Assembly: GCF_964355755.1 (NCBI RefSeq)
Contig: NC_092673.1
Span: 2,795,001 to 2,859,000 of the forward strand
DNA: 64,000 bases
Direction: 5' to 3'
Origin: Antedon mediterranea
Lineage: Eukaryota; Echinodermata; Crinoidea; Comatulida; Antedonidae
Of this stretch, positions 27,577 through 62,036 are shown one piece after another; the first letter of the stretch is position 1; each line of letters opens with the position of its first letter. A model generated the notes under the pieces. That model made no database searches. It was not told the DNA's origin and saw only the letters and a list, made by a program, of their open reading frames with translations. Both the position numbers and the translations under genes were made by a program.

Positions 27577-30500
27577 ATGGCCACAACATCATATATTCTG
27601 GTAAGATACACGATTTATGGTGTAAGTAGTTGTTTATAGTTAGTTTAGTAGTTAGATATATATTTTATTTAGGGTTTGAACTACTAAAGTGATCAAAATG
27701 AGTATACATTAATGTCGAGGCTATACTGTATATAGCTAGGCCTATTGTATTAACCACGTGACTATGTAGCGTCGGTTTATTTATAATATATATATATATT
27801 TCCTTTAGGCCTATATTTATAATAATGTAGACACTAATTTGTTCTTGAGCTATGGAGAAATTTGTACTCTGTATTATTTTTTCGGAAATAAAAGATGAAA
27901 TGAAATTAAAAATCGAAGGATACGGCGGACTGCGCATGTTATGTTTATTATTGTGTATTAATGTATACTTATTGTTTAGATGCTTCCAAAAGCTTTCCAA
28001 CTAATTTCCATTATGGACTGCACCTAATTTTACAGATACTTGCTTTGGTAATTTTTGCTGCTGCGGAAAGAGGCGATGTGGAGGTATCGCGCCGAGTAAG
28101 AGCTGCGTCCGATGTAGTTTTGAAATTTAAAGGATGTCGCATGTAAGTTGATATCAATACATTACACAATAACAAAGAGTTTATTTTTAATAATCTATTA
28201 GGCCTATCTGCTACTGTCAAAGTGTATCTTAAGCACTGTCTACACATATCAAACTTTATGTGACAACAAAATGTGGCTGATGATTTCATATGACTACCAT
28301 ATTTGGGCACATCACATTTTTTTGTCAAAAAGATTACCTATAAAAAACCAGTTCAACAGTTCCTAATCCCTTTGTTTTCACAGATTTAATGTGGAATGTT
28401 TACATTTGCAAGGAAACAACGAATAAGACTAGTACCTATTTATCGCGGTGATTGCGTTCCACATTTCATTTCATTTCATTTATTCCACATTTATTTAGTC
28501 ATCAATTACATTACATCATAATTAAAGTACAACTGAAAACAGGGATCCTGCATAAAAAAGCTGTAGCTTCGTTTTTTTGTAGAACCCTTCTACATAAGAA
28601 CAAGTATATAGAACTTAAATAAAACAAAGGTGTTGTTAAAAAATGTTCCATAGATATAATGATAACAGTTTCATCATTATTTCAATCCCTAAACACAAAT
28701 CTGGGTCAGAAAATAATAGTAACGATTAGATATACATAAATAATTTTCTTGTGATAGCATGGTATACTACTGTTAAGCATTTCCCTAAAGGGCAAATCAA
28801 ATACAAATATATAAACTGAAAGATACACAAATTATGATAAATAAGTTAACAAACGTTTCATAACTAAACAACTTTTTTCATTAAACATGCAATATATTTT
28901 GTAATAGATAACATAACAAAAAAATATGCAGAAAATAATGTAAATATATATATGAGATTCTGTAATTGTTGAATAAAGGTGGTAGTTAACCACAAAAGAT
29001 AAAAAAAAAAATAATAATAATTTTCTATTTATTTACTGATATATTTTTTTATTTTTACAGTACTAGTGACCAAGCAAAACTAATAACCGCTCTTTATGGG
29101 GAAATACTAAACGTTCCAAGAAGGACTGGGAGAAGCGTTCGTGCTGCTGGTCTATTTGGTGTCAGTAGCAGCTTACAGACAACGGATGAACCGACAGTGG
29201 AGCCAACAGCAAATGTAACAGGAAGTGAATCATTATTGGAAGCCAAAAATGCAACAGACGCACCTCAAGAAAGTCTACAAGACATCAACAAAACCAAAGA
29301 AGAGGCAGGACACGGCAATATAGAAACCAACTTGCAACGGCAAACAACGCCGAAACCAATCGATAACTACCAGGATCAGGATGGCGGGAATAACCCGTCT
29401 GGCAATAAATGGAGTTCTTGGAGTTCTTGGAGGACATGGTCAACGGGACAACAGGAACAACCACATAATCCAATAAATAACCAAGACCAAGGTGTAGACC
29501 AGAACCCGTCTGGTAATGATTGGAATTCCTGGAGGACATGGTTCACAGGGCAACAACAACCACAAACCGACCAAAGACCAGAGAGAGGACAGAACCCGTC
29601 TGGTAATACCTACTGGGAGACCTGGTCTACATATGGACAGCAACCAACTGGGAGCAAAGACCATGATTGCGAAAATGATAAAGAGCAGTCAGAGATAAAC
29701 AGAGGACAGGCGGCTTCACTAGGTCATCGGGTATCTGGAATACAGGGCCCAAGGGGAGAAAAAGGCGGGAAAGCTCCATCTAACTCTGACAATACTAGAT
29801 CAAGTTGGTGGAGGACATGGCAAGATCAAGGCACACAAGCGCCGTCTAATAGTCCAGAGCCATCAACAAGTCAAAGTCCATATCGTACTGCAAGGGCCAA
29901 TTGGTGGAGAACGTCTAATTGGCAATATGGTCCTACAAGCCAAGTATCAAATCAGAGGAGACAGGGAACACGAGACGGTCAAGGAACTTATTCAAGTAGT
30001 TCATCTTGGTCAAGTTGGTGGACAACTTCTACTGGACAACAAGGCCCTTCGGGTAGTCAAGGACGTAGAGGTACTCAGGGTAGTCAAGGTGGACAAGGAA
30101 CAAGAGGAGAACAGGGCCCGACTGGAAATCATGGACCTCAAGGCGGGCAAGGGCAAACAGGAAGACAGGGTTCATCAGGTAGACAGGGACCAAGAGGAAA
30201 CGAAGGACGGTCAGGTGACCAAGGTCCACGAGGCGTACAAGGACCGAGGGGAAGTCAGGGGCCATCAGGTGGTCAAGGAAGACAAGGACCAAGAGGAGGA
30301 CAAGGACCATCAGGTAGTCAAGGACCTAGTGGTAGCCAAGGACCTCAAGGAAGACAGGGTCCACATGGAGGTCAAGGACCTCAAGGAGGACAGGGTCAAC
30401 GTGGAGGTCAAGGACCCCAAGGAGGACAAGGGCCAAGGGGAGGACAAGGACCATCAGGTAGCCAAGGACCTAGTGGTAGCCAAGGACCTCAAGGAGGACA

Positions 30501-32140
30501 GGGTACACGTGGAGGTCAAGGACCCCAAGGAGGGCAAGGGCCAAGGGGAGGACAAGGACCATCAGGTAGCCAAGGACATAGTGGTAGCCAAGGACCTCAA
30601 GGAGGGCAGGGTCCACGCGGAGGTCAAGGACCTCAAGGAGGACAAGGTCCACGTGGAGGTCAAGGACCTAAAGGAGGACAAGGACCAAGGGGAGGACAAG
30701 GGCCGAGTGGTAGCCAAGGACCTCAAGGAGGACAGGGTCCACGTGGAGGTCAAGGGCCTCAAGGAGGCCAGGGTCCACGTGGAGGTCAAGGGCCTCAAGG
30801 AGGACAAGGGCCTCAAGGAGGACAAGGGCCTCAAGGAGGACAAGGGCCAAGGGGAGGACAAGGACCAAGTGGAGGACAAGGACCTCAAGGAGGACAGGGT
30901 TCACGTGGAGGTCAAGGACCAACTGGAGGTCAGGGAGCATCGGGTAATCAAGGACCACAAGGAGGACAGGGTCCACGTGGAGGTCAAGGACCAACAGGAG
31001 GACAGGGAGCATCGGGTAGTCAAGGACCTCAAGGAGGACAGGGAGCATCGGGTAGTCAAGGACCTCAAGGAGGACAGGGAGCATCGGGTAGTCAAGGACC
31101 TCAAGGAGGACAGGGAGCATCGGGTAGTCAAGGACCTCAAGGAGGACAGGGAGCATCAGGTAGTCAAGGACCTCAAGGAGGACAGGGAGCATCGGGTAGT
31201 CAAGGACCTCAAGGAGAACAAGGGCCCAAAGGAGGTCAAGGGGAATCAGGCAATCAAGGACCCAGCGCGAGACAAGGTTCATCGGTCATCCAAGGGCCTA
31301 CTGGACCACAAGGAGGTCAGGAAACACAAGAACCACCACGGGGTCGTGATTCGTCAACGAGCCAGACGACCAGGTACTCATGTTCTACAATAACTAAGAG
31401 CAAAACTATTACCAAGGGAAAAAACAAAAGTGGAAAATCAGTATCTGTATTTCAGGGAACACTTTCCGATGGAACGAAATGGTATCAGACCATAGACAAG
31501 ATAAAATGCAAGTAAGTAACCTGTAGTGACAATGATGAACACGTATCATTCACACCCAATAAGTTTCAATACCTGGTTAATATTTTACCTAAAATAATCT
31601 ATATATATTTAAAACAAGGCCATATACATGGCTGGATCATCAGTCGCGTGTTCAAATTTGAGTTAGTGTTTAACAACCGACCGACCGACCAACCAACATA
31701 GTGAGCTATAGCGTCTAAAAATAATTTTGATATGACATTTTTGGCAATTTCCATTGTTAGGCTACACATTGTAAACTATTAAACCAACTCTTTGCAAAAG
31801 AATGTCTTTGCACAGACACCAGAGATCTGGAACCAACCTCGTTCCATCCGTTACACTACATCCCTTTTTCAATTCAAATCTCTCTTGAAAACTCACCTAT
31901 GTTGCGTTGTGCAATGTTCGATATTATTATTTTTTTATACATTAAATTTCAAATTAAATTGTTATTTTTAACAGGGGTAGATGTGGTGCAAACGGACAAT
32001 CTAAATGCGCTGTTAAATACTGCTATCGACAGGTCTTGGTTTACACAGGCTGCGGAGACGCTCAGTTCGGCGTTAATCTAGAGTTTCAAGAGGTCAAACA
32101 ACCATGTAGCTGCATATGCAAAGACGATCGCTACCAATAA
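27577..32140 (+). CDS. Secreted collagen-like protein with C-terminal neurotrophin/Spaetzle-type cystine knot
   Basis: Exons 27577-27600, 28036-28142, 29061-31511 and 31975-32140 give 915 aa with consistent phases (0, 2, 2). Order: signal peptide (about 1-20, ALVIFAAA). Pro-region with basic pairs and one Cys (KFKGC). Trp-rich repeats at about 100-370 (SGNKWSSWSSWRTWSTGQQ type, about six). Roughly 140 Gly-X-Y triplets at about 372-797, mostly GPQ/GGQ/GPR/GSQ. C-terminal knot at 818-909. The knot matches neurotrophins: first Cys818, ITKGKNKSGKSVSVF, YQTIDKIKC860 (42 apart; 43 in NGF), YC877, then C905-S-C907 exactly 28 later as in NGF. Extra Cys 864, 872, 887 and 909 could add disulphides. Collagen triplets would trimerise, whereas neurotrophins dimerise. 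Receptor and role are unknown. An about 20-bp minisatellite follows the gene. Confidence 0.88.
28228..28332. mobile_element. MITE family A fragment
   Basis: GCACTGTCTACACATATCAA and TTTGGGCACATCACATTTTT. Intron 2 of the collagen-neurotrophin gene. Confidence 0.65.
28460..28560 (-). mobile_element. Possible LINE 3' tail (minus strand)
   Basis: CATTTCATTTCATTTCATTT reads on the other strand as a TGAAA-type simple tail following a UTR-like stretch. Weak evidence; only the tail is convincing. Confidence 0.35.
30043..31320 (+). repeat. Coding Gly-X-Y (collagen) repeat block
   Basis: In-frame 9- and 18-bp units (GGAGGACAAGGACC, GGTAGTCAAGGACCT). The last third is a near-identical 36-bp array (GGAGCATCGGGTAGTCAAGG...) between 30985 and 31210, showing recent in-frame expansion. 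The frame is kept throughout. Confidence 0.93.
31590..31715. repeat. Dispersed repeat with GACC tract, copy 1
   Basis: ATATACATGGCTG...CAGTCGCGTGTT ... ACCGACCGACC ... ACATAGTGAGCTATAG. A second copy lies at 35925-36005. Intron 3 of the collagen-neurotrophin gene. Confidence 0.75.
31795..31905 (+). mobile_element. LINE reverse-transcriptase C-terminal fragment
   Basis: One + frame reads ...PEIWNQPRSIRYTTSLFQFK followed by SLLKTHLC, typical of the C-terminal end of non-LTR reverse transcriptases. Intronic and truncated. Confidence 0.55.
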
Positions 32141-32468: not shown

Positions 32469-32614
32469 GATTAAAAATGAAAAAAAAAAACACACAAACT
32501 ATTGCATTCTCTAGAATAATGACGATCACATGTATGAGGAAAGAATGGAAAGAATGAATGAATGAATGAACAAACAAACGAGTGGATGATACTAACAAAC
32601 GACTGGAAGAGAGG

Positions 32615-33497
32615 ACAGACTAATGGATGGAGCAGTGGCCAGGCCACTGGAAGAGAGGACAGAGAACTGAAAGAGAGGACAGACGACTGAAAGAGAGGAC
32701 AGACCACTGGAAGAGAGGACAGGCCACTGGAAGAGAGGACAGAGGACTGAAAGAGAGGACAGACCACTGGAAGAGTGGCCAAACCACTGCAAGAAAGGAC
32801 AGACGACTGAAAGAGAGGACAGACCACTGGAAGAGAGGACAGACCACTGGAAGAGAGGACAGAAGACTGAAAGAGAGGACAGACCACTGGAAGAGAGGAC
32901 AGACCACTGGAAGAGAGGACAGAAGACTGAAAGAGAGGACAGACCACTGGAAGAGAGGACAGACCACTGGAAGAGAGGACAGAGGACTGAAAGAGAGGAC
33001 AGACGACTGAAAGAGAGGACAGACCACTGGAAGAAAGGACAGGCCACTGGAAGAGAGGACAGAGGACTGAAAGAGAGGACAGACCACTGGAAGAGTGGCC
33101 AAACCACTGGAAGAGTGGCCAAACCACTGGAAGAAAGGACAGACGACTGAAAGAGAGGACAGACCACTGGAAGAGAGGACAGACCACTGGAAGAGAGGAC
33201 AGAAGACTGAAAGAGAGGACAGACCACTGGAAGAGAGGACAGACCACTGGAAGAGAGGACAGAAGACTGAAAGAGAGGACAAACCACTGGAAGAGAGGAC
33301 AGACCACTGGATGGAAGAGAGGACAGACCACTGGAAGAGAGGACAGACCACTGGATGGAAGAGAGGGCAGACCACTGGAAGAGTGGACGACGACTGGAAG
33401 AGAGGACAGACGACTTGCTTAAAGAGAGGACAGACCACTGGAAGAGTGGACGACGACTGGAAGAGAGGACAGACGACTTGCTTAAAGAGAGGACATA
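32615..33497. repeat. 20-bp minisatellite between the two neurotrophin-like genes
   Basis: About 43 copies of GGACAGACCACTGGAAGAGA with variants (GACGACTGAA, AGGCCACTGG). The unit has few stop codons, so long ORFs appear in several frames on both strands. None has a non-repetitive domain and I treat all as artefacts. Confidence 0.95.
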
Positions 33498-34592: not shown

Positions 34593-34755
34593 TTAAAGCT
34601 CTGTCTACACTATCAAACTTTTGTTCCAAAAAATGTGATGTGCCCATATATGGACACGATAATGTCATATCACACCATATTTGGATATATCACTACCATA
34701 TTTGGGCACATCACACTTTTGTTGTCAAACTAGTTTGATAGTGTAGACAGAGTTT
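34593..34755. mobile_element. MITE family A copy
   Basis: Full-length; AAAGCTCTGTCTACACTATC ... GATAGTGTAGACAGAGTTTA. Confidence 0.88.
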
Positions 34756-35924
34756 AAGATTCTCAAGGTAATCTAACTTCTTTTTAAAGTTGTACAGAGT
34801 GCGACACAAGAGTTATGTCACTGACACACATACACAAATATTGGTCCTTGGTTCAACTAGATAAATCATTATGGAATTATAAATAGGATTAAAAGATTAC
34901 AAATAATCTGATATAATATCGACATCATCTGCCAATGATTCTATTATTAAATGTGTTTTATTTCCGTTCCCATTAGATACGGCCACGTTCAGATTTACGT
35001 GACCACCAACATTCGAAATCGTTCCAGTTGACTGGTCACAAGCCGCGTGCCATAGATATAAAATGTAGTCGTAGTTAGCAATCACTTTAGTAACTTTTGA
35101 GCATTCGGACCTTACGTTTCGTATACGTTATTTTTGCTGCATGATCAAATTGAGAAAAATGGTGAGTATGATAAAAATTGTTTAAACATATTGAAAATTA
35201 TGTGAACGAATTATGTCAATGTACAGTAAGACTTATAATTAACTAGGACTAAAATTTACGAACCTTTTTTTGCGCGACGACTAGAATATTACACATACTT
35301 CGTACTGTTCTTGCTATAATTTTAATATCGGAATATTTGAAACCTTCATTTAAAATTTTGTTTTAATAGATGTTATTGCCAATGATAGTTATTGTTCTGG
35401 TGGTGGTAGTTGACGGTGGCAGTCTAGGTAAAACGAAGGGGCCGGTGTTGAGAGGCTTAACGTCCCGTAACTATCAGAAACGATCGGTTTTGAATATGCT
35501 TAAAAGAAATGAAATAGGCCTACAGCAAAATAAACACGTTTCAAAAATTGAAGACGATGAAGATGTGTACATGTTCGTTGGTGAATGTACAATGTAAGTT
35601 ACAATGAATGTCTATTATATATGAATATATTATATTCATCATCATAAAATCTTATATTATGCATGTAATTATTATACTGCATATTATACTTATTTATATA
35701 AACAAAATAAGTATCATTGTGCAATGTAATGTTCGGAAATAGTGAAAAGAATGAAATACAGTATTTTGAAAAAAAAAAAACAAAATACGGTTTGCTTTAT
35801 ATATTTGTTCTTCATTTAGCAACATCTTTATACAGGATTACACAATCAGGTAAAAGAAAACCTGTTTTGCATTGTGGTACAAAATGGATACAAAAAAAAT
35901 CAGGGAAAAAATGTTTAGTTTATT

Positions 35925-36005
35925 GTGGAAAATATACATGGCTGCAGTCGCGTGCTTAAGTTAGTTTTTACCGACCGACCGACCGACATAGTGAACTAGA
36001 GTCGC
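35925..36005. repeat. Dispersed repeat with GACC tract, copy 2
   Basis: ATATACATGGCTGCAGTCGC ... ACCGACCGACCGACATAGTG. Intron 2 of the second neurotrophin-like gene. Confidence 0.75.
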
Positions 36006-36716
36006 GCTGCTACACAACATAGCCAGCAATAAAGGGAACACCCATATAAATTTGTCTGTTTTTTCTCAAGGATGTCTGGTTCATCTCATGGGGGTAAAAC
36101 AAAACCTATATCCGTATTGAGATACAAGTGACGTCAACGTTTACGTGTGGGTGGCACTATTAATTGACATTAACAATTACAGTAATTTAACGTCAATCTT
36201 CGTTTTTTTTTATTGTTTTTTGAAAATTATTTTTTTAGAACGAAAAAGCAAACCAATCTTATATTAAAGGCCTTTGGTGGAATTCTTCGTCAAGATATTT
36301 TTCTAAATGATGATGGAGAAACTGCTGAAAAAAATGTTTTGTACCGAGATTTAAAAGACAAAGATATTAAGAAAAGATACCAAGAGATCAATCAACATGA
36401 GATACGAAGAAGTCTTCTTGTTCATAATGAGAAATCATTAATGGCATTAATTAAAAGGGCTGGACGAAGAAATCAACCAGATAAAGAGGATACATCTGGA
36501 ACACAAAACAATGACATCGAGAAGAGTGCTGGGAAAACGCCTGAACGAATCGGGTATACCAGACATTGAGAGAAAGTGGAATTATTTTACGGCGAAAGTG
36601 TTGATTCCAGGATGAAAGTTTACCAGACTAAAGATAAAAAATGCAGGTAATGATCATTTTATAAACTTTTCAAACCGAGAGGCTAACCATCATTTCCTTA
36701 AAAATTGTTTACGCAC

Positions 36717-36883
36717 TTAAGCTCTGTCTCATTATACTATCAAACTAGTTTGAAAAAAAAAGTGATTTCCCAAAATATGGTAGTGATATACACTCAATAT
36801 GGTAGTGATATGACATCATCATGTCCATATATGGACACATCACATTTTTTTTGGTCAAGTTTGATAATGTAGACATGGCTTAA
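36717..36883. mobile_element. MITE family A copy
   Basis: TTAAGCTCTGTCTCATTATA ... GTTTGATAATGTAGACATGG. Intron 3 of the second neurotrophin-like gene. Confidence 0.8.
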
Positions 36884-37127
36884 CTCAGTTGATTATCAAC
36901 TTTAAAAATCTTGTTTATTTTTTCCAGATCACATTTACAAATTGCATTAAGTCATCGAAACGAATGCTACACACCAGCATTGGTCGTGAAAGGGTGTGGT
37001 GACGGTGATTTTGGTGTCAAACTGGAATTGCAACACATTAGGTGTGGTTGCTAATCACCACTGGTGAGGCCAGGAGTCAGGCTAGGTATTACAGGAATCA
37101 TATCTTCATGATATAATTGTTTATTCT

Positions 37128-37576: not shown

Positions 37577-40500
37577 TCACGACTTCTGTTCTTCTGTTTC
37601 TGAAAAGATATATTTGCATTTATGAATTAAAATATGCATATTAAATTTATCATTATTTATAATTTATACTAAATGTGCGACTTTTTTTATATTAAAATTA
37701 AAATAGATTAATTTATTTAGAAAGAAAGTATACTTGTAATCAATTCATTTAAAATTAGAACACATAAATTACAGTACAGTATATGATAAAGAATTGCATA
37801 CGTACATTTCATATTTATTAAATAAATAATATTTTATTATTTATAAATGTGCAATTTATTTTATATTAAAATTAAAATAGATTTATTTAGTAAGACAATA
37901 TACTTACAATAAAATCATTTCAAAATAGAATGCATAAACTACAGTATAATGTTTAATAAGGAATTCCATACATGGTTCATATTTATTAAATTAATAATAA
38001 ATTTGTATATTTGTAAAACATTGTGTAGTTTACCTTTGGTTGAGTTATGTTGTTTTTCATCAGTAATTTCTGTTTTTGGTTTTACATCTAAACTGAGTTT
38101 AGTTGGACTGGTGATTGAGTTATTGTTCTTCGTTGGACTGTCACCCCTGTCAATCAAGTCCCATGGGGGCGGGGCTTGGTCTTTGATACGTCGCAAGGCA
38201 TATTTGAAAATACCGAACCCAGACATTCCAGTTGTAAACCAGTATTTTTCGACTTTGTATAGTCCTGTAAAAATATAAAAAAAATAAATTGTTTAGGTCA
38301 CCTTCTATAAAAAAAACACAAATATATACGGAATACTAATCAAGAAGGCCCCTGGTTCGTCAGCATACGCTGTTTAGGGTCACCCTCTATAAATAAGGTA
38401 AAAAAAAAACACCATTTTTTAAATATATGGTCATTCAAAACTTGTTTCAATAATGTAATTGTAACCAAAACTGAAAACAATGAAATATCATATGCTAAAA
38501 ATAAAATATTATATAAATAACACTAATAACTTGAAGAGCTTCAATAAGTATTAACCATGTCTACTAAATCGATTTGAATAAGTGTTTATTTTTTTTTTTA
38601 ATGAATTTAAATTATTATATTACTTTTCCTAAGTATAGAGTAATAATGAACACATACCATCGTAGCGATAGCCATCTTCTGGTGCGAAAGGACTGTCAAG
38701 TTTGTAGCCACGGATTACGCGAACCGGTTTGCCGTTATCAACATTGCGACTTAACGCTAAGTTAACTGCAACACAATTTATGTTAATAATAATATCAACT
38801 TATAAAGGAAAAAAACAGAGTGGGGGACATGTGCAGACTTCAATTTTATGTGCAAGGTATAACCCTCTGTCTACACTATCAAATTAGTTTGACAAAAAAA
38901 GTGTGATATGCCCAATGGTAGTGATGTGCCCAAATATGGTAGTGATATGCTATCATCATGTCCATACATGGTCCACATCACATTTTGTTGTCACATAATG
39001 TTTGATAATGTAGACAGAGCTTAAGGTACACTAGTTATAAAAGGTGCAAAGTCAATAATATTGTTCAAATGAAGGGCCTACCTTTGGCTAAGGTTTGGTC
39101 TTTCGACTGTGGTGCAGTTCTCAGATTCTTTGGATTAGCTTTTGTTCCTTTCAGATCTCTTCCACCTAAAAAAAAAACAATTACTTTTTAAGCTTTGTCT
39201 ACACTATCAAACAAGTTTGACGAAAAAAATCATGTGCCCAAATATGGTAGTGATATGACATATGGGCACATCACATTTTTTTGGCAAAGTTTGATAATGT
39301 AGACAGAGCTTTGCCGCCTTATTATTCTAGTAATCATTTTATACTCTTGTAGGATAACTATCCAGTGTAAATTAAACATGGTTCTCAAATTTGGGGTGGA
39401 GGGAAAGCGGTGCACATGGTGGGTTTTGTAATTCTATCAGCATCTTACCAGATCCAGTGTATGTGAAGCAGTCACCAAGATCGATGTCATCTTCATAACC
39501 CCCAGATAGCGCTAGAGAGTAGCAGCCTTCCTGTTCATTGCCATGAATACCAGCTACTGTTGGCCTATGAATGCCAGCTGCTGAGCATTCCATTCTAGAC
39601 CACCACCAAGTACCAACCTCTACCCCTAAAAATTTAACAAGAATTTGTTATTTGACATACTTGATACAATATTAAGTATATAGAACAATGATGTTCAATG
39701 TACATTGTTGTTTTCAAATCTTCTGATAAACGTTAAGCACACGTATATTTTAATTCAATATTTATAGTTCATTTTATTTGTCCAAAAGGAAATTCATGTT
39801 AACATACAATTGTAAAAAAAATTAGTTGAAGGTTAGTAATACAGAAAAAGACAAAAATATTTGAAAAATATGACAGAGCTACAATAAACAATGAAATTAA
39901 CTTTGTTGATTAAAAAGCTGGATTGATTCTTCCCAAGCATTGTATTATCATTAAACTACACACCTGGTATACTGCCATATGAGTTCTCTCTTGGAAGTGC
40001 TTTCTTCTTTGGCTTGTAGTCAGCATCCTCAGAGAAAGAGTCCTCCTGCAGCTCCATGCCTTCTAGTGCTTTCTAAAATATTGATTTAAATCACAATAAA
40101 CATATATTAATTACTATAAAAAAAATTCTATATGCAAAAATTTTTATTATTATCGTAACACTTATTTGTGCACTTTGTATTTAACAATAAATACCTGTCC
40201 TTTGAGTCTTCGGGATCGACGGTGACCATTAGAAAAATCACTGCCATCTTCTGATTTGAACTCGACACCTTCTTCACGAATGACCACCTTTCGCGGTGTT
40301 TCTGGACGGGATTCTCGCTTTCTTTTCACAGTCTTCTTTACAACTTTAGGAAGTCTTTTAAACTACGCAGAAACAATTTTAGCATTATGACAAATTATAT
40401 ATTTAGTTTACTGCATCAATGGTTGCATTAAAAGGAATAGTAAGCTATACTACGGCTATGATACGGCTGGGTCTCCACAGTCCCCCTCTAAATTTCGCAA

Positions 40501-40782
40501 ATTGTAATGCAAAAGATAAGACATCAAATTAAGAACACTTTATTTCACTACTTTAAGGAAGTCCCGCCCCCCCCCCCCCAACCCCTATTTCATAAACATG
40601 GCACTGAAATACATGAAGATAAATCTATACAAGTACAATTTATTTTTTTTTAAATTAAGAAATCAATAATAATATTTTAAATAACTTACAGGATTGAGAA
40701 TGCCCAGTTCAGCAAGAACCTTCTTGTTTTCCTCAATATTTTTCAATCGAATCTTTTCATATTCTGATAATGCAGTTGGCAT
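37577..40782 (-). CDS. Stand-alone SRA-domain (UHRF1-type) protein
   Basis: Exons (complement): 40782-40690, 40362-40195, 40072-39964, 39625-39449, 39165-39082, 38765-38658, 38264-38034, 37599-37577; GT-AG, phases close, 330 aa. The N-terminus is [20 protein letters not shown], a helix-like start I associate with WDR76-type proteins. A basic, probably nuclear region follows ([23 protein letters not shown]). The SRA domain is at about 118-283: [80 protein letters not shown]. In UHRF1 this fold flips and reads 5-methylcytosine. The pocket-side YSL..GGYEDD is kept, while the NKR-finger region (GNKR in human) differs (GTKANPKN). UHRF1's ubiquitin-like, Tudor, PHD and RING parts are absent. A Ser/Lys-rich tail ends the protein. 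Confidence 0.88.
38859..39024. mobile_element. MITE family A copy
   Basis: CCTCTGTCTACACTATCAAA ... TTTGATAATGTAGACAGAGC. Intron of the SRA gene. Confidence 0.85.
39188..39312. mobile_element. MITE family A copy
   Basis: TAAGCTTTGTCTACACTATC ... TTTGATAATGTAGACAGAGC. Intron of the SRA gene. Confidence 0.85.
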
Positions 40783-41521
40783 TTTGACTGGTTCTCTTCT
40801 TATATTATAAATGACAATATGATATCTGTTGATAATTCAAACAAATAATGTAATGTAAATTACCCTTTACAATTCTACAATAAGATGTCCAATGAAGGGG
40901 CCTCTACTGTGGCGAGGTGCTGGATACAGGTGACCTCTGGGTCTATGTACTGAGGACGTACTGCCTTTCTAAAAAGCTGTTGCAACGCGGCCTGACATAC
41001 CACCACAACATGATGGATGGTTTGGGTAGGCCTCTAGCTAGGCTAGGCTAGGCCTATATGTTATATTGTCATTGATATGCTGAATTCGGTTAATTTACAA
41101 ACATTGATTGCCATTTATAAATATACAACTAGGCTAGTTTATGTCAACTAAAACAATATTAACATTACATTTTACAAGAAAGACTTACGCAAATAACACG
41201 TGCTTTCTATTGTATGACAGGTGGATTTTAAATTGGATTATGAAACCCAGAAATCGCGCGAAAATGTATTTTATTCAACCAGTTTTTGCAATAACAACAA
41301 GGGTTTAAAAATATATTTCTATATTAAAAAGTTAGTTTTATTTTAGGATTTGTATCAAATAAATATATTTTAGTTGATAAACCTAAATAAGATAATAAAA
41401 CGTTTTGCAATCAAATTGTATTTAAACACATTTTTTCTTAGATTAGGCTAGTATGTCTTGCCTGCTGTGTTTACTCAACCGTAACATTTACATCTAGCTA
41501 GGCTAGGGAGCTATATATCCA

Positions 41522-60000: not shown

Positions 60001-62036
60001 TTTTTAGATATGCTGTTAAATAACAGATTCATTATCTGCTTTCTTTCAGAGTTTAGACCAGGAATATGTCCGTATGTACTTGAAATACAGACATCGTGTG
60101 AAAATGAATGCGAGGAAGACAAACATTGTCTAGATAAATCCAGTAGGTGCTGCCAAACAACGTGTGGAAAAAAGTGCACGGCCATCAACGCATCTGCTGC
60201 AGCACCAACTACCAATTATGTCACTAATGTAACGTCATTAACGAACACGTCATTACCCTCCTCGGAGGAATTGACGTCACCCAGAGTAGCAATATCGGCC
60301 AAAATGATGTCACCATCTGTTACACATGACGATTGTTATGTTCGTGAAGAAGATAAATACAAGAAGTTTTTTGGAGTATGGACGTACTTATGCAATAATA
60401 GAAGATATTGTAGAACTAACCAGGACTGTACTGAAAGTGAGGAATGCACGTGTCACTCAAATTGTGGCAAAGTATGCAAAATCAAACCTACGCCCACAGG
60501 TAAACATCATGTGACAAGTCTCGCAAAGCGCGAACATTTCTAGTAAACACACTTTCTAAAGATGTATTGTCCCCCTGAAAAACAATTTGTTGTTGGTATG
60601 CCATTTTAATGTCACATAATAGTTATCCACTTTGACCAAAAATTGGAAAGAAACAAATGTATTTACCTAAAAAAATTTTAAGCAAAAAATAGGAAACCGG
60701 ACCAGCCAATGAGTTTTTGATTGAATTTAACCATTTATTTTGTCATTTTATAAGTGAAAACATTTATTTTTTCCATTTTTTTCTACAAAAGTGATTAACT
60801 TTATTAAACTACAAAATAATGTCTGATTTTATCTGGATATTGAAGTGTTTCTTCGAAATACCAGACTAAACATTTTGGCAAATTTAGGCCTAGGCCCAAT
60901 ACAGGTCAATTTAGCAATTGAAGTGACGGTACCTATCTTTTGTATGTTAACAGTGAAAATCATTAGGTAGATTTTGCCATGCACTCACAGAAATTTACGG
61001 CGACGGCTGTACGGCGAGCGCGCGCGCGGTGATATCGTGAATCTCGCGATTGTTCTGAAATCATATGTACATCCCTAATACGTTGTTAAAATATGGTTCT
61101 ATGAAATAGTTCTCCTTTAGAAGCAGTATTATTTACACAAACATGCTATATTAAAATTCTAAATATAATGTACATAATTTGCTTTTTAGCGTTCGTACCG
61201 ATGTGTGTTGTTGATGCTATTCCAAAACAAAGTCAATCGACAAACCAGCAACATGCAGCCAACAATTCAAATTTAAAACCAGTCTTGATTCAAAATATGG
61301 CCAACCATATTGCGCATATAGCAGCCATAGAAAGAGGTAGGTCTAATAAAGGTAATATATTGTAAACATGGATTTGCGGCACGAGTAAAACCAACATTTT
61401 AAAAAATGGACTTAATTTTATGAAAAATAAATTGCAAGCTAAACGCAAACTGTACTAGATATGATCTTTAATAATTTAAGTAGGTACTAACTTTTCTATT
61501 GTAGGCCTAATGGTTTTTCTAATAAATATATGAATAAACTATAAGTCTGCAACATTTGCAAAAAATGTACTTCTCGCCCCTTCCTTCTCTTCTGTATTTT
61601 ATAGCACGTACATACTTTTTCCTTTATAATTACATATCTACCTATTCTTTTTTTTAAATTTCATTTCCAAAAAGACAATCAATAGGCCACCAGCTGTGGA
61701 AACAATACAACAAGAAAGGGTTATCTTATCATCTTTTTGTATTTATTTATTTTCTCATTGATTATAGATCCATGTTTAGCAGTGACCTGCCCTGGGGGTT
61801 ATAGCTGTATGGAAAAAAGACATGGTGGTATCGAATGCGTTTACAACGAAATCGATACGAACTGTCAAAAGAAACGTAAACCAATTTGTGCAAGTGATGG
61901 TAATATATACAAATCAAAAGAGGCTTTTCGAGAAGAACAGAGGCGCTTAAATAAATTGGGTATTAGACTTTACCAAGTAAGGAAAGGCTGTCGTAACAAG
62001 AACAGCACTAGTCAAAATAACAGCCGAAAACTCTAA
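57058..62036 (+). CDS. Secreted WAP-like / follistatin-Kazal cysteine-rich protein
   Basis: Exons 57058-57139, 59327-59515, 60050-60499, 61190-61336 and 61768-62036; GT-AG, every internal junction in phase 1, 378 aa. Start could instead be the in-frame ATG at 57100; both precede the hydrophobic MMVISVALLYANS signal peptide. Three WAP-like disulphide units follow: CPYRSKEYRVFGMEGNYC with CSNICGRSC; CPYVLEIQTSC with RCCQTTCGKKC; CYVREEDKYKKF with CTCHSNCGKVC. A Thr/Ser-rich linker with sequons (NVT, NTS) separates units 2 and 3. A Gln/Asn-rich exon leads to a follistatin-N-type unit (CLAVTCPGGYSCMEKRHGG) and a Kazal-like unit (KPICASDGNIYKSKEAF, final Cys in RKGC). These folds are found in protease inhibitors and growth-factor binders; the target is unknown. 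AATAAA lies at 62327-62332. Confidence 0.82.
58295..58375 (+). mobile_element. tRNA-like (SINE head or tRNA pseudogene)
   Basis: TGTATGGCTCGGTGGTCTGT (A-box-like) and GTACCGAGATCGAGTCTCAC (B-box-like) are spaced like a tRNA-derived pol III promoter. No intact cloverleaf could be confirmed by eye. Intron 1 of the WAP-Kazal gene. Confidence 0.45.
58942..59083. mobile_element. MITE family A copy
   Basis: TTAAGCTCTGTGTACACTAT ... TTTGATAGTGTACACAGAGC. Both termini share the compensating change TGTACAC, so the inverted repeat is kept. Confidence 0.87.
60557..60835. mobile_element. Inverted-repeat element family B, 3'-truncated copy
   Basis: TAAAGATGTATTGTCCCCCT start and shared interior with 34206-34544; right terminus lost. 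Intron 3 of the WAP-Kazal gene. Confidence 0.65.

Follow-up and report, generated by a model that had tools for sequence, protein, structure and literature searches.

A predicted protein with a divergent Spätzle/NT2-type cystine knot behind a collagen-like block

Can a cystine knot of the kind found in Spätzle and the neurotrophins sit at the end of a collagen rod? Spätzle and the neurotrophins are small diffusible dimers freed from short pro-domains. In ectodysplasin and the C1q/TNF-related proteins, a cytokine-type domain lies behind a collagen stalk. A family member on a collagen rod would couple growth-factor or Toll-type signalling directly to the extracellular matrix, a link that ectodysplasin provides in the TNF family. 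The question was raised by a 64,000-nt stretch of DNA (the window), in which an initial annotation had described a neurotrophin-type knot behind a long run of Gly-X-Y triplets. The window sits on contig C4 of a genome of 354 Mb in 18 contigs, which we searched for relatives. Here we ask whether the fusion is real, to which family the knot belongs and what such a protein might do.

Gene model and collagen-like block

The gene model comprises four in-frame exons between 27577 and 32140, all of whose introns are GT-AG, and it yields the 915-aa collagen-knot fusion that had been proposed (Table 1). The predicted protein consists, in order, of a signal peptide, a short pro-domain with one Cys, a linker with sequons, Trp repeats, the collagen block, a spacer of 36 residues and a C-terminal knot domain with nine Cys. 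Exon 3 extends in full from 29061 to 31511. An open frame of 841 codons (28990-31515) runs unbroken from the Trp repeats through the collagen block into the knot, whose first half it includes, in agreement with the earlier statement that the Trp repeats and the long collagen block occupy one uninterrupted exon. Since the first knot half and the collagen share this frame, the fusion is independent of the predicted splice. The splice predicted between exons 3 and 4 is itself partly backed by paralogs described below, in which an intron of phase 2 occupies the corresponding position. The collagen-knot architecture is confirmed as real.

Table 1. Positions of the collagen-knot gene, its relatives and other features (window positions unless a contig is given)
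Feature	Position	Strand	Description
Exon 1	27577-27600	+	Signal peptide start (MATTSYIL); GT donor at 27601, in frame
Exon 2	28036-28142	+	Remaining signal peptide and pro-domain start, ending ..FKGCR(I); AG/GT borders
Exon 3, part 1	29061-29397	+	Pro-domain (ITSDQAKLITALYGEIL..) and linker with three N-glycosylation sequons
Exon 3, part 2	29398-30027	+	Trp-rich repeats, eight WxxW motifs
Exon 3, part 3	30034-31266	+	Collagen-like block, 137 Gly-X-Y triplets without interruption; Pfam PF01391
Exon 3, part 4	31375-31511	+	First half of cystine knot (Cys I and II, YQT..KC), in the collagen's own open frame
Exon 4	31975-32140	+	Second half of knot (Cys III-VI and extra Cys), stop included; phase-2 intron before
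Tandem copy without collagen	35159-37054	+	Exons 35159-35161, 35370-35593, 36239-36646, 36928-37054
Minisatellite	32602-33478		20-bp unit, 43 copies, 3' of the collagen-knot gene's stop codon
SRA-domain (UHRF1-like) gene, by look	38150-40840	-	Exons reading like such a gene
MITE-like dispersed repeat	34600-34750, 36720-36870, 38860-39020, 39190-39310, others		Inverted ends GCTCTGTCTACACTATCAAACT...GTGTAGACAGAGC; many copies in and around introns
Cys-rich open frames	60001-60543, 61686-62036	+	Resembling, by look, WAP-type and Kazal-type protease inhibitor domains
Related knot exons, C4	32440314, 32446192, 32451612-32452086, 32457210-32457981
Related knot exons, C6	3717624-3718576, 2186315
Related knot exons, C2	3507163, 602653, 17744517, 17746505
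Paralog L048, C2	3505889-3507290		Gly-rich block directly before knot, one open frame
Canonical neurotrophin, C2	39933087-39933398		250-codon open frame, pro- and mature domains

The initial annotation had put the collagen block at about 140 triplets. We counted 137 consecutive Gly-X-Y triplets (residues 369-779), and the block matched the Pfam Collagen model (PF01391) at 2e-23; it is the only part of the protein that Pfam recognises. A long uninterrupted Gly-X-Y run, a collagen-like trait, is thus present. The strict Gly period stands beside varied residues in X (12 types) and Y (7 types), which favours a collagen helix over a silk-like chain. The collagen trait of Pro in Y is absent (0 of 137), so there would be no 4-hydroxyproline, and GGQ makes up 40 of the 137 triplets; together these two features suggest a triple helix of possibly low stability. 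The 137 triplets would be expected to form a triple helix whose stability is uncertain. At the DNA level the block is a tandem repeat with units of 36 bp and 126 bp. The collagen-knot protein is nevertheless under constraint: none of the 137 Gly codons varies at position 1 or 2, whereas position 3 is free to vary (entropy 1.38 bits). Between repeat units, differences at third positions (0.44-0.64) are about two to three times more frequent than at first and second positions (0.16-0.29). A plain minisatellite would not give such a codon-position bias and is disfavoured. A search with the collagen block found about 100 collagen-like stretches in the genome, and those other loci that were retrieved carry different triplets.

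Upstream of the collagen, residues 161-364 contain 18 Trp and form six degenerate Trp repeats. The WxxW motif is a C-mannosylation motif (PMC8433626), and the repeats may be C-mannosylated in the collagen-knot protein. A genome search at E up to 1 revealed no further copy of the pro-domain or of the Trp-rich region. The pro-domain aligned with that of the tandem copy downstream (score 24.2, compared to a shuffle maximum of 18.7). Aligned with the Spätzle-like paralogs at large, it gave no significant score: 28 of 150 shuffles did equally well. Among the relatives compared, the pro-domain is, by alignment score, common to the tandem copy only.

The tandem copy has three intron phases identical to those of the collagen-knot gene, including phases 0 and 2 around exon 2. 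Its fourth exon, encoding the second knot half, is 42% identical to the collagen-knot gene over the aligned part. It has no collagen, no Cys I and a shortened C-terminus, and an in-frame TGA (36567-36569, in its third exon) lies ahead of the knot half. Barring an assembly error at this locus, the copy is probably in decay.

Family assignment of the cystine knot

The initial annotation had suggested a profile search of the knot. Searched alone, the knot matched no Pfam model, passing neither the Spätzle (PF16077) nor the neurotrophin (NGF, PF00243) cut-off, and no match was found in the PDB. Relatives were found in the same genome, where related knot exons lie on C4, C6 and C2 (Table 1). At C4:32440314-32457981 at least four Spätzle-like knot genes are clustered, and with the C2 and C6 loci there are about ten genome-wide. 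The joined domains of three paralogs, S1, S2 and L048, passed the Pfam Spaetzle cut-off of 27 with 43.0, 46.6 and 38.9 bits, and one more paralog reached 26.9 bits. Two of the joined domains also passed Pfam NGF (27.9 and 34.6). Directly downstream of Cys II, a phase-2 intron is common to the collagen-knot gene, to paralogs on C4 and C6, to one on C2 and to the tandem copy.

The knot was compared with these paralogs by profile alignment, using shuffled controls in which every Cys was kept in place. Against the profile of Spätzle-like paralogs it scored 43.1 (hhalign 93.8%) compared to a shuffle maximum of 19.0. Against a wider set that included Drosophila Spätzle it scored 59.0 (hhalign 97.0%, shuffle maximum 19.8, z 19.4). 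Overall, z-scores against the Spätzle-like paralogs were 12-19. Since the Cys-preserving shuffles scored at most 20, the knot keeps family residues beyond its Cys. The signal was strong in the second knot half (hhalign 93%, z 10.9) and weak in the first (13.6, compared to a shuffle maximum of 12.6; z 3.7, 0 of 150 shuffles as good). Compared with the single sequence of Drosophila Spätzle, the knot scored at chance level (z 0.1). When a profile of the knot and three paralogs was searched against all PDB sequences, only Spätzle and NGF-family chains were matched, the best being Spätzle C-106 (E 0.006). The score against canonical neurotrophins was 10.9, compared to a shuffle mean of 12.4 (z -0.5). 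Because the paralogs match the knot and canonical neurotrophins do so only at chance level, we assign it to the Spätzle-like branch. Judged from these profiles, the knot belongs, as a divergent member, on the Spätzle/'NT2' side of the NGF-Spätzle superfamily, and the link runs through the paralogs. The description 'neurotrophin-type' thus holds at the level of the superfamily, where both the PDB profile and the paralogs support it, and fails for neurotrophins in the strict sense.

The knot domain has nine Cys, compared to six to eight in its relatives. The first two (C818 and C860) are 42 residues apart, as had been noted in comparison with 43 in NGF. A second spacing, 28 residues from YC to CxC, had been taken as shared with NGF. 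The number is correct (C877 to C905); the homology is probably not, since the family alignment places Cys IV at C872 (QSKC, opposite PSRC, FGRC and NSQC) and not at C877 (KYC). For the last Cys pair, the shared Pro (PCSCIC compared to PSCCVC) favours C907 and C909. Most paralogs also have C887, in a GC motif; C877 and C905 are either additional or shifted. The traits of Spätzle that are present are the six knot Cys, a Gln seven residues before Cys II, and a Pro and an extra Cys before the last pair, the extra Cys being displaced by one residue relative to the paralogs. In the sections of Wilson 2009 (PMC2772990) that bear on these residues, Gln and Pro are named as traits of Spz and neurotrophins, and Gln is described as common to both families and structurally important. 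Folding of exon 4 alone predicted a long beta hairpin (pLDDT 75). In Foldseek, this hairpin gave weak matches (best E 0.54), mostly to cystine-knot proteins, including IL-17, VEGF, NGF, BDNF, gremlin and VWF CK; these agree with a cystine knot but are not discriminating.

One paralog, L048, has in front of its knot a block of about 127 residues with a Gly content of 60%, largely in GGX triplets. With this block included, the score against Pfam Spaetzle was 35.3 bits. The block is not collagen, its Gly period being broken, and the knot intron is of phase 2 as in the collagen-knot gene. Gly-rich repetitive pro-regions are therefore not unique to the collagen-knot gene. The single canonical neurotrophin of the genome is a separate gene that lacks the intron splitting the collagen-linked knot. 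Its frame fits the single-exon neurotrophin precursors described for sea urchin and vertebrates in the relevant part of PMC2772990. Together with the overall appearance of the sequence, this may point to an echinoderm; a COX1 search of the assembly gave no match.

Possible functions of the collagen-knot protein

Spätzle and the neurotrophins act as dimers, that of Spätzle being disulfide-linked, and the stalk of collagen-bearing cytokines serves oligomerisation or matrix contact. By analogy with ectodysplasin and the C1q/TNF-related proteins, the gene may encode a secreted, matrix-anchored, multivalent ligand precursor with a Spätzle/NT2-type knot on the C-terminus of a collagen-like rod, a reading to which we give an even chance. 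The initial annotation had likewise proposed a trimerising, matrix-tethered ligand precursor, which remains putative. Speaking against the ligand reading are the lack of a Pfam hit for the knot on its own, its chance-level similarity to Drosophila Spätzle, its nine Cys, the absence of a furin-type site immediately ahead of it and the uncertain stability of the triple helix. The rods would pair three-fold and the knots two-fold through disulfides; combined, they would make a multivalent ligand anchored in the matrix, with networks favoured. A Toll- or Trk/p75-type receptor could respond to the ligand in situ, or only after a protease has cut between rod and knot, perhaps in the Arg-containing spacer PPRGRDSSTSQTTR. 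The genome is rich in TIR-domain genes (38 matches), and binding or activation of Toll by the knot is putative. More speculatively, and with doubt prevailing, the ligand might remain permanently on the collagen triple helix as a signalling matrix, Gly-triplet pro-regions having been gained more than once in the gene family.

The same parts could instead belong to a structural or adhesive matrix protein, in which the knot has lost signalling and is only a disulfide cross-linking end, in the way that mucins and von Willebrand factor are dimerised by their C-terminal CK knots. The WxxW repeats and Q-rich rod would then make up a glue, gel or cuticle. Extreme repeat content, a Q-rich rod of low charge and the Trp repeats point in this direction, as do the additional knot Cys (C877, C887 and C905), the strong divergence of the knot from its ligand-like paralogs and the presence of a Gly-rich block in another Spätzle-type paralog. 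Networks built from a three-fold rod and a two-fold knot fit equally well. However, the Cys-fixed shuffles indicate that family residues besides Cys were retained, the closest relatives of the knot belong to ligand families, and the short pro-domain common to the tandem copy was kept. We consider a purely structural role unlikely, although it deserves serious weight.

The two remaining explanations fare worse. The original wording, a canonical neurotrophin that gained a collagen pro-domain, has the superfamily right and draws on the spacing of Cys I and II, the G..V.V pattern and a Gln before Cys II, all of which resemble NT-3 by eye. It is contradicted by a profile score at shuffle level, by the misassignment of Cys IV, and by the canonical neurotrophin gene at C2:39933087, in which no intron splits the knot. 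The canonical trait of a single-exon mature domain after a furin-type site is also absent: the collagen-linked knot contains the phase-2 intron, and no RxxR lies directly before it. This origin is very improbable. A decaying or non-functional gene, with an expanded minisatellite for a collagen block, would be in keeping with the condition of the tandem copy (TGA before the knot half, Cys I missing), with the tandemly repeated collagen DNA and with a 20-bp minisatellite ~460 bp after the stop. Against this, neither the 841-codon frame nor any splice site is disrupted, and divergence at third codon positions is two to three times that at first and second ones. Decay is hardly probable.

Comparison with known systems

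A literature search found no collagen-bearing Spätzle or neurotrophin, and none with WxxW repeats among Spätzle members; the combination of collagen with a Spätzle-like knot appears to be undescribed. The gene resembles the Spätzle family (PF16077, the arthropod Toll ligands) in having a knot after a signal peptide and pro-domain, a multi-exon structure, and a Pro and an additional Cys close to the fifth knot Cys, and its in-genome paralogs pass the Pfam cut-off. In contrast, the collagen-linked knot itself reaches no cut-off and carries further Cys. To canonical neurotrophins (NGF, BDNF and NT-3; PF00243) it is related as a member of the superfamily by profile and by the spacing of Cys I and II. 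It differs in lacking direct profile similarity and in gene structure, and their pro-domain is short, furin-cut and without collagen.

A further comparison is with the deuterostome genes NT2 and NTb of the neurotrophin superfamily. In the portions of Wilson 2009 (PMC2772990) that concern them, deuterostomes are said to have no Spz genes and Spz-like traits of sea urchin NT2 are noted; NT2 has several exons and Pro136, and an extra Cys lies beside the fifth knot Cys in NT2 and in NTb. The Spätzle-like paralogs fit this account, the comparison being one of description only, and those portions describe no collagen block. If the organism is a deuterostome, the collagen-knot gene would further support the view that the Spätzle branch has persisted in deuterostomes. 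Erythroferrone (PMC10772735), a C1q/TNF-related protein, is likewise a secreted regulator with a collagen-like segment, and it oligomerises; its C-terminal domain is unrelated. In ectodysplasin and the C1q/TNF-related proteins the collagen stalk leads to a TNF/C1q jelly roll that is trimeric in itself, whereas the knot here comes from a family that dimerises two-fold.
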